Shown here one piece after another: positions 3,857 through 6,810 of a stretch of DNA of 20,740 nt. The notes below the pieces were generated by a model. That model was not told the DNA's origin, made no database searches, and saw nothing but the letters and a program-made list of their open reading frames with translations. The position numbers and the translations under genes were made by a program. The DNA comes from an uncultured Eubacterium sp. GTDB taxonomy: Bacteria > Bacillota > Clostridia > Lachnospirales > Lachnospiraceae. The stretch covers positions 1-20,740 of the forward strand of contig CAJOQF010000129.1 in the NCBI GenBank assembly GCA_905236295.1. The letters run 5' to 3'. Positions within the stretch are counted from its first letter, which is position 1. Each line of letters starts with the position of its first letter.

Positions 3857-4546
3857 TCACATCTCCCCGTCCGGGGTATCATCCTTTACATCTTTCTTTA
3901 CACTTATCGCCGTGCCGTCCCCCGCCGAGAGGATCGTCGTAACAAAGCATTCGCTGTGAGTCAGCTCGTACAGATACTCTCTCATACGCTTGTGTATGGT
4001 GCGGTCACGTTTCTTTATTGCGTAATGTGGCATGAGGATATCGCCCTCTTTTAACACATTGTCTGAGACGAGGATCCCTCCCGTCTCAAGCAGCCTTGTA
4101 AGCTCCGGCAGGAAATTAATATACTGTGCTTTCGGACCGTCGAGAAATATAAGGTCAAATGTCCCTGTAAGCTCAGACAGCACCTCTGCCGCATCCCTCT
4201 CGATAAGTGTGATCAAATCTTCTTTTTTAAACTTTTTAAAATTTTCCTTCGCAGCCTCAATGCGCGGAGGATAGTTTTCTATGGTAATGAGTTCTTTAAG
4301 ATCATCATCGTACTCAGCCATAAACAGGGCAGAAAAACCAACAGCCGCTCCAATCTCCAGTATGCGCCCCGGACGGTGCGCCGCCAGAATGACTCTTAAA
4401 AGAGACTGGGTAGCCCTGCGGATGATAGGAACATCATCCTCTATAGCCTCCCTCTCCAGCTGCATCAGCTCATCAGTTTTATTGCTCTCTATCGATGAGA
4501 GAAATATTTCAAATCGACTCTCTTCATCACCGTACGAAAAATTCAA
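3857..4546 (-). CDS. trmR: O-methyltransferase TrmR (tRNA 5-hydroxyuridine methyltransferase-like)
   Basis: A class I SAM-dependent methyltransferase of the YrrM/caffeoyl-CoA O-methyltransferase type, about 229 residues. Motif I is LEIGAAVGFSALFMAEY, followed by the acidic ITIENYPPR strand and the DLIFLDGPKAQYINFL motif with its metal/SAM-site Asp. Bacillus TrmR methylates 5-hydroxyuridine at tRNA position 34 to give 5-methoxyuridine. The next gene is a TrhP-like U32 protein, which makes that substrate. The start is a TTG. Two in-frame TTGs occur, at 4552 and 4546; the GGGAG at 4558-4554 is seven bases from the second and only one from the first, so I chose 4546. Some relatives methylate other substrates, but the neighbour makes TrmR the best call. 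Confidence 0.8.
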   Translation of the reverse strand: MNFSYGDEESRFEIFLSSIESNKTDELMQLEREAIEDDVPIIRRATQSLLRVILAAHRPGRILEIGAAVGFSALFMAEYDDDLKELITIENYPPRIEAAKENFKKFKKEDLITLIERDAAEVLSELTGTFDLIFLDGPKAQYINFLPELTRLLETGGILVSDNVLKEGDILMPHYAIKKRDRTIHKRMREYLYELTHSECFVTTILSAGDGTAISVKKDVKDDTPDGEM

Positions 4547-4564
4547 AGTCAAACTCCCATAAAC

Positions 4565-4903
4565 CTAAATATTAAATCCGATCTCAAAATCCAGCTTGTC
4601 GACTACGCCTCTGACAATGTTTTGCATAAGTCTGCAAAATCCAAGCTCGGCCTGCAGATAATCCTCCGCAAGCTTATTGTGGGAAAACTCCTCCGTCATC
4701 CGCATGAGCTCCGCCACCTGGTCGGATTTGATGTCTCCATGCTGTCTCTGAAACTTGTAATTTGCCTCCTGGTAATCGCACACGCGTTTGTACAGCTCGG
4801 GATCCTCCTTCAAGGCATCTCTTGTCCTCAGGTATTCATTGTACTCATCCAAAGCCATAACTCTGTTTGCAAGAATATTTACTATTCTTTCGCGATCAAT
4901 CAT
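4565..4903 (-). CDS. YlbF/YmcA family regulator
   Basis: 112 residues, almost all helical, in the YlbF/YmcA (DUF964) family; the central DPELYKRVCDYQEANYKFQ region is typical. In Bacillus, YlbF, YmcA and YaaT form an Fe-S-containing complex that modulates RNase Y and affects competence, biofilm formation and sporulation. Whether this copy acts like YlbF or YmcA cannot be told from sequence alone. One Cys is near residue 42 and another near 89. The ATG is one base after the RNase J TAG stop, with GGAGG six bases upstream. Sitting directly after an RNase gene suggests a role in RNA turnover or its control. The gene also ends in TAG. Confidence 0.8.
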   Translation of the reverse strand: MIDRERIVNILANRVMALDEYNEYLRTRDALKEDPELYKRVCDYQEANYKFQRQHGDIKSDQVAELMRMTEEFSHNKLAEDYLQAELGFCRLMQNIVRGVVDKLDFEIGFNI

Positions 4904-4904
4904 A

Positions 4905-6569
4905 CTATACCTCCATTATTATAGGCATTATCATAGGACGTCTCTTGGTATGAGTCCATACAAACTCACCAAGTGAATCCTTTATAGAGGTCTTGATCTT
5001 GCCCCAGTCTGTGACTCCCTTCATCATAAGGATATCCATTGTCTCGTCGAGGACATGTCTCGCCTCATCAAGAAGCCCCTCGGATTCTCTTACATATACG
5101 AAACCACGGCTTACGATATCCGGACCCGCAAGCACATTTGCGCTCTCCCGATCCAGCGTAAGCACTACGATTATGATACCGTCCTCTGCCAGACGCTGTC
5201 TGTCTCTGATAACGATGTTTCCGACATCTCCTATTCCGAGTCCGTCGACAAAGACATCTCCGGTCTGGACGTGATCCACAACCTTGGCTGAGTTCTCATC
5301 GAGCTCAAGTACATCTCCGGACTTGAGGATAAATATATCATCCTTGTCATATCCGAGCTCCTTGCAGATATTTGCCTGAGCCTTCAGATGCTTGTACTCG
5401 CCGTGTACAGGTATGCAGTACTTAGGTCTTACCAGGGAATATATAAGCTTTATCTCCTCCTGGCAGGCATGTCCCGATACGTGTGTATCCTGGAAGATAA
5501 CATCCGCGCCCTGCATCGTAAGCTCATTTATGATGCCTGAGACCGCCTTCTCATTTCCCGGTATCGGATGTGAACTCAGCACCACAACATCACCCGGTTT
5601 TATATGTATCTTTTTATGCATACCACTCGCCATTCTCGAGAGAGCCGCCATGGACTCACCCTGACTTCCGGTGGTGATAAGAACCGTCTTTTCATCCGGA
5701 TAATTCTTGAGCTGGTCGATCTCCATAAGAGTGTTCTCCGGAATCTTTATATAGCCGAGTTTGGTGGCAATATCGATGATATTTACCATGCTCCTTCCCT
5801 CGACTCCGACCTTTCTGCCGTACTTTGCGGCAGTGTCTATTATCTGCTGCACCCTGTCCACGTTAGAAGCGAATGTTGCGACAAATATTCTTGAGTCCCT
5901 GTGATCCGAAAAGATCGCGTCGAATGTCTTGCCTACGGATTTCTCCGACATGGGAAATCCCGGACGCTAGGCATTTGTCGAATCACACATAAGCGCAAGC
6001 ACGCCCTTCTTTCCGATCTCTCCGAATCTCGGAAGATCGATGGCGTCTCCGAATACAGGAGTATAATCCACCTTGAAATCTCCGGTGTGCACAACGATGC
6101 CGGCAGGCGAATAGATAGCCAACGCCGCCGCATCCTGTATAGAGTGGTTTGTCTTGATAAACTCCACTCTGAACGCGCCAAGGTTAATATGCTGTCCGTA
6201 GCTTACGACTTTTCTCTTGACAACCTTGAGCATTTCGTGCTCCTCAAGCTTGTGCTCGATAAGACCATTCGTAAGCTTCGTGGAATAGATAGGAACATTT
6301 ATCTCCTTCATAACATAGGGAATAGCTCCGATGTGATCCTCATGTCCGTGCGTGATAAAGAATCCTTTTACCTTATCGTAATTGTCCTGCAGGTAAGTCA
6401 GATCCGGCACGATGAGATCTATTCCAAACATATCGTCCTCCGGAAACGACAGTCCACAGTCGACCACAATAATGCTGTCGTCATACTCGAAAGCGGTAAT
6501 GTTCATACCGATCTTCTCAAGTCCGCCCAAAGGAACGATCCTCAACTTTTTAGTTTTCTTATTCTTCAA
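4905..6569 (-). pseudogene. rnj: Ribonuclease J, interrupted by one in-frame TAG
   Basis: RNase J is a 5'-3' exonuclease/endonuclease central to mRNA decay in Bacillota. The frame runs 200 codons, then TAG at 5969-5967, then five codons to a Met at 5951 and 348 more residues in the same frame. The total of about 554 codons is the normal family length, so nothing is deleted or shifted. The front half has the metallo-beta-lactamase motif THGHEDHIGAIP, TNHSIQD and HTGDFKVDY, and breaks inside LMCDSTNA-stop-RPGF, where homologues have Glu. The back half has the beta-CASP domain, ITTGSQGE, SSHPIPGNE and PVHGEYKHL. Catalysis needs both halves. It starts at TTG, six bases after a GGAGG that lies inside the DUF1292 gene, and no convincing ribosome binding site precedes Met 5951. 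Possible explanations are a nonsense mutation, suppression or a base-call error. Confidence 0.85.
5967..5969 (-). other. In-frame TAG at a conserved Glu codon of RNase J
   Basis: The codon reads TAG between the Ala of DSTNA and the Arg of RPGF. A single G-to-T change in GAG would produce it. RNase J itself, the YlbF-family gene, the U32 gene, the Nudix gene and the hydrolase gene all end in TAG, so TAG acts as a stop here and genome-wide reassignment is unlikely. Confidence 0.9.
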
Positions 6570-6810
6570 AATCTACCTCCATTAATTCTGTGAAAATCTT
6601 ACTGAGGGAGGTTAAGATATCATCATCTTCTACGAATTCATAAATGACATCTTCTCCGTCCTCCGTTATCTTTTTTAATATCCAACAATCTGCATCACCG
6701 TCTTCATCCTCTGTCACAAGAAGATAATCACACCCCGACACAGTAGTTTGCTCTAATACATAAAATTCTATTTCTGATCCTGTTTCATCAGTAATTCTAA
6801 TTGTTTCCAT
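6559..6810 (-). CDS. DUF1292 (YrzB-like) acidic protein
   Basis: 83 residues, strongly acidic, matching DUF1292/YrzB: ITDETGSEIEFYVLEQTTV, then YLLVTEDEDGDADCWILKK. It looks like a small all-beta cytoplasmic protein. No biochemical function is known for the family. In many Bacillota it is encoded with ireB and ruvX, as here. The ATG is nine bases after the ruvX stop, with only a distant GGGG upstream, so coupled translation is likely. Its last codons overlap the TTG start of RNase J by 11 bases and contain that gene's GGAGG. Confidence 0.85.
   Translation of the reverse strand: METIRITDETGSEIEFYVLEQTTVSGCDYLLVTEDEDGDADCWILKKITEDGEDVIYEFVEDDDILTSLSKIFTELMEVDFEE

Follow-up and report, generated by a model that had tools for sequence, protein, structure and literature searches.

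Internal stop codons in otherwise intact, conserved genes have been described as spurious pseudogenes of draft assemblies. According to the available excerpt of one study (PMC11017572) such stops are often assembly artefacts and depend on coverage; the study rests on coli reads and not on metagenomes. The locus described here shares with these cases a single stop, an otherwise intact conserved gene and a fragmented draft, and it differs from those in the excerpt in that the error is one that we infer. The gene resembles RNase J1 (RnjA; profiles NF047419 and TIGR00649; solved chains 3zq4 and 6k6s) in being of full length with all domains in one frame. It differs from RnjA by a TAG at codon 201, a Pro at codon 206 and an NF047419 score of 702.9 bits, which is below the curated RnjA cut-off of 820. 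The RNase J of [Eubacterium] oxidoreducens (P0007) is found in genome G001, one of three other members searched of what is, by the grouping used, the same genus, and the source organism is therefore a relative of that species. The two proteins are identical at 172 of 200 residues before the stop and at 279 of 353 after it, with the difference that P0007 has a sense codon, GAA, at codon 201 and Thr at codon 206.

The window, that is the whole stretch of 20,740 nucleotides that was analysed, contains the following features of concern here.

3857..4552, minus strand: trmR-like methyltransferase, the name being taken from an earlier, sequence-only reading of this DNA
4565..4903, minus strand: gene directly downstream of RNase J, taken to be ylbF-like after the same reading
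4905..6569, minus strand: RNase J reading frame, 554 codons, with a TTG start, a terminal TAG and one interruption
5970..6569, minus strand: first piece, 200 aa, which covers NF047419 positions 3-192, the initial part of the metallo-beta-lactamase domain, and contains the Asp-164 equivalent
5967..5969, minus strand: the in-frame TAG, codon 201
5952..5954, minus strand: codon 206, Pro here and Thr in all 226 RNase J sequences aligned with it
4905..5951, minus strand: second open piece from the ATG of codon 207, 348 aa, with the beta-CASP, RMMBL and C-terminal domains and the His-389 equivalent (profile matches for this piece were run on 4905-5966)

The stop is really present in the assembly, where it is flanked as DSTNA-TAG-RPGFPMSE. 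The two pieces match adjoining parts of one profile, positions 3-192 and 195-549 of the 549 in NF047419, and a six-frame search gave a single match to this profile over 3-549 with '1 TAG' inside. TIGR00649 is matched in full length across both pieces (617 bits against a cut-off of 400, positions 2-546 of 546), and the Pfam domains PF00753, PF22505, PF07521 and PF17770, all above cut-off, are shared out between them. The full-length profile and the four domains of an RNase J are thus found, while one continuous open reading frame is not, because of the TAG at codon 201. The assembled sequence confirms what the sequence-only reading had described, a single in-frame TAG that interrupts an RNase J, normal in other respects, where Glu is the usual residue. 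An antisense open frame of 230 aa (5901-6593, plus strand) lies over the N-terminal part of RNase J as a mechanically predicted frame.

The most likely explanation, with a probability of roughly 0.6, is that the TAG is a local base-level or assembly artefact and that the enzyme is ordinary, intact and single-copy. The artefact would consist of a wrong consensus base in a fragmented draft, perhaps together with the odd codon 206; we infer that the TAG base itself is wrong. The sequence-only reading had listed a base error in the assembly among its alternatives. The state of the draft favours this reading, since it comprises 2,143,295 bases in 387 contigs and is 79.87% complete and 3.52% contaminated. 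Its fragmentation is shown by RNase Y, which is divided between two contig ends (G000:C25:3-1313 and G000:C54:6337-6540). What counts against an artefact is that the other sampled parts of the genome are clean, which speaks against an assembly with errors throughout. This sample comes from a homology survey of 941 reading frames of G001 against 41 of the 387 contigs. Matches were removed if their identity was below 45% or if they overlapped a better match, and what was left came to 70 pieces representing 64 genes and 21,066 aligned codons, among which the TAG of RNase J was the only stop inside a gene. Five further stops, four on other contigs and one before the RNase J start, fall within the first nine aligned columns and are read as lying upstream of gene starts. 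One query of the survey gave two pieces on L164. The homology survey was the only one relied on, because mechanical split-gene surveys performed poorly and left RNase J itself unflagged.

The presence of RNase J throughout the family also favours an artefact. A match at E <= 1e-50 was found in 294 of 299 family genomes, and in 288 of the 299 it was above the family cut-off; among good-quality genomes (at least 90% complete, at most 5% contaminated) the proportion with a match at E <= 1e-50 was 245 of 245, though a match does not prove that the gene is intact. The six genomes that have a match below the family cut-off (G111, G201, G207, G230, G271 and G274) show a best E of about 1e-93 to 1e-118 and perhaps carry partial or broken genes. 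The sequence-only reading had offered a second RNase J gene elsewhere as an alternative; a search of the whole draft found none in the recovered part, the other matches being of 18-29 bits and belonging to other proteins. Within the genus, no RNase J was found in G002 (86% complete). A loss of RNase J in the genus was considered on this account and rejected, since G002 also lacks ruvX and has a best U32 match of 38% identity, so that the region is probably just missing from its assembly. The ruvX and U32 neighbours are on the RNase J contig in G001 as well.

The half of the gene past the stop is no more diverged than expected, which is a further point in favour of an artefact. The ratio of dN past the stop to dN before it has a median of 1.38 for the window and ranges from 1.02 to 1.9 in 19 relative loci, of which two are identical in sequence; synonymous sites are saturated in most pairs of the window with a relative. 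Judged by this comparison the downstream half shows no sign of relaxed constraint, and since the ratio for the window lies inside the relatives' own range, any real break would be recent.

Of the 227 distinct sequences that were aligned, 214 have E at codon 201, 3 have M, 3 I, 2 V, 2 L, 1 Q and 1 S, and only the window has a stop. At this position Leu is found in 6k6s, the solved chain of RNase J1, and the codon at the TAG site is GAG in the genus relative G003. The expectation of Glu in the sequence-only reading holds as the usual state (214 of the 226 other sequences) and fails as an obligatory one, as M, I, V, L, Q or S replaces it in 12. On this alignment Glu at codon 201 is usual but replaceable.

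A second abnormal codon, 206, lies 15 bases from the TAG and likewise favours an artefact. T is found here in 226 of the 227 aligned sequences and P in the window alone; in a wider set, consisting of the 305 of 340 downloaded proteins that fit a looser motif, the residue was T in 304 and S in 1. The sequence-only reading is silent on this substitution (T206P). Singletons at an otherwise invariant column occur somewhere in 34 of the 227 aligned sequences. In the neighbouring genes the window differs from its relatives at 2 of 31 invariant columns in trmR, 1 of 2 in ylbF, 0 of 25 in ruvX, 0 of 136 in U32 and 0 of 2 in DUF1292, a comparison in which a few of the relatives' matches have stops near either end (trmR 3, ylbF 1, U32 1). 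Since such singletons are carried by other sequences and the neighbours also deviate at invariant columns, the abnormal codon 206 would be a hint of local error and weak evidence for it. A tangle of the assembly graph at a shared DNA motif was considered as a cause and found unsupported, since by DNA identity the best 30-base window over codon 201 ranks no higher than the top 16%.

The trmR-like gene has 46.7-56.5% identity to relatives at the six loci printed, some of them from the same genome. One block reads DGPKAQY in the window versus DAAKGQY in relatives; the AA of the latter motif is found in 109 of 111 matches, and the motif was not found in the other 2. From the sequence this block change looks like lineage divergence, and the gene at 3857-4552 may possibly have been replaced.

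Single stops at other positions of RNase J in two further assemblies also favour an artefact. A metagenome-assembled genome from roe-deer rumen (L142, JAFUZE010000021.1) has a TAA at codon 539 in the numbering of the window. It is the only stop-bearing locus of the 80 examined, and it has abnormal residues at 484, 538, 546 and 551, the last three no more than 12 codons away from the stop. The other genome, G095 (L082, G095:C231), is a draft of about 460 contigs and was the one stop-bearing genome among the family-genome matches listed; its TAA is at codon 487 in the same numbering, where 223 of the 227 aligned sequences have Ser. The different stops, in different places and in such draft assemblies, favour sporadic error over a shared mechanism. 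Against an artefact, the stop of G095 has no abnormal residue nearby, its single singleton being residue 126.

Among 392 genomes of the order, a stop at codon 201 was found in one, the organism's own. The same stop in relatives, as expected for programmed readthrough or a conserved split gene, was thus seen in 0 of the 391 others, in a scan that misses about a quarter of relatives, as its any-codon pattern fits 84 of 113 loci. A conspecific copy of RNase J was not seen among the best 120 matches listed in each of three protein-database searches, where the closest sequences other than the window's own pieces were 84%, at most 87% and, over part of the query, at most 89% identical. The protein cluster of the 200-aa piece has 2 member sequences on 1 contig. 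Two RNase J pieces in the database, 204 and 207 aa long (P0179 and P0177, the latter listed on 4 contigs), end at or just past the same motif and may represent either contig ends or real truncations.

Next after an artefact comes a genuine nonsense allele of very recent origin, carried by the strain or population that was sampled, by which RNase J would be lost or strongly reduced and RNA decay carried by RNase Y and other nucleases. This reading is tentative and rather unlikely. Going by the title of a 2013 paper by Figaro, rnjA can reportedly be deleted in B. subtilis. The available excerpts of PMC8266666 and PMC7864078 likewise give B. subtilis rnjA as deletable, and this tolerance of the loss of RNase J1 speaks for a null allele. 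So do the presence of RNase Y in the draft, in its two contig-end pieces, the clean state of the sampled genes and the lack of RNase J in G002. Neither piece alone holds both Asp-164 and His-389, two residues that the available excerpt counts among those of the active site in S. epidermidis RNase J1; in P0003, an intact relative, the corresponding motifs have the same numbers. These points are countered by the matches in all good-quality family genomes, the undecayed downstream half, the failure to find a second copy and the probable incompleteness behind the absence in G002, and such an allele would be unlikely to dominate in a natural population for a gene of this kind. The sequence-only reading regarded a true null as surprising; the B. 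subtilis deletions in the excerpts weaken this opinion, and the family-wide presence still supports it.

An improbable reading is that of a two-piece RNase J, in which translation would stop at codon 201 and restart at the ATG of codon 207, the pieces associating into an enzyme. The TAG is placed at the junction between the beta-lactamase and beta-CASP domains: the available excerpt on the RNase J of S. epidermidis assigns residues 4-200 to the first beta-lactamase segment and 206-360 to the beta-CASP domain, and the alignment puts the TAG at about residue 200 of that protein. The ATG six codons past the TAG opens the 348-aa frame, and the abnormal codon 206 is inside the stretch that would be left untranslated. 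Against restart, the ATG is also found inside intact relatives and the GGGATTT upstream of it is common to G001, so neither was made for this purpose. The stop does not recur in the 391 other genomes, the local RNA fold at the stop is unremarkable compared with shuffles (z = -0.73), and Asp-164 and His-389 would be on different pieces. No split RNase J was found among the 12 of 14 literature matches listed, in the excerpts that they provide.

In the last reading an amino acid would be inserted at the TAG, whether through programmed readthrough, a suppressor tRNA or an altered genetic code. The frame is open and constrained past the stop, and the recovered tRNA set is incomplete, with 19 matches, so that a suppressor tRNA could sit in the missing part. 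Against this, a piece of prfA is present at a contig end (302.8 bits, below the cut-off of 423.25; model positions 3-228 of 361). Its last residues hold a PxT-type motif, which we take to mark RF1, and the other release-factor match has SPF, which presumably marks RF2; the loss of RF1 that goes with recoding is thus not seen. Among 116 long frames whose stop is visible, TAG terminates 32 (a further 7 frames run off the contig); the frames were chosen mechanically by length and some may be spurious. TAG is also the terminal stop of RNase J itself. No CTA anticodon was called by ARAGORN at the 19 tRNA matches in this draft of about 80% completeness, one match (L028) being without a call. Several conserved genes with an in-frame TAG, as recoding would give, were not found in the 41 of 387 contigs surveyed. 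Genome-wide recoding of TAG was rejected on the RF1 piece, the common use of TAG as terminator and the lone internal TAG, and there is little room for recoding of any kind in view of these results, the lack of a called CTA and the lack of recurrence. The suppressor tRNA and programmed readthrough put forward by the sequence-only reading are unsupported on the same grounds. The literature matches listed for bacterial UAG readthrough are, from their excerpts, mostly eukaryotic work and are left out of account. Decoding of the TAG is the least probable of the readings, with very little in its favour.

A local artefact in an ordinary RNase J gene thus remains the most likely reading and a recent null allele the next. 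The case mainly cautions against taking an isolated stop in a conserved gene, when the assembly is a draft, for recoding or for loss of the gene before the reads have been checked. If the stop is real, a species that lives with no RNase J, or with one made of two pieces, would offer a useful natural test of the extent to which this enzyme can be dispensed with or divided.
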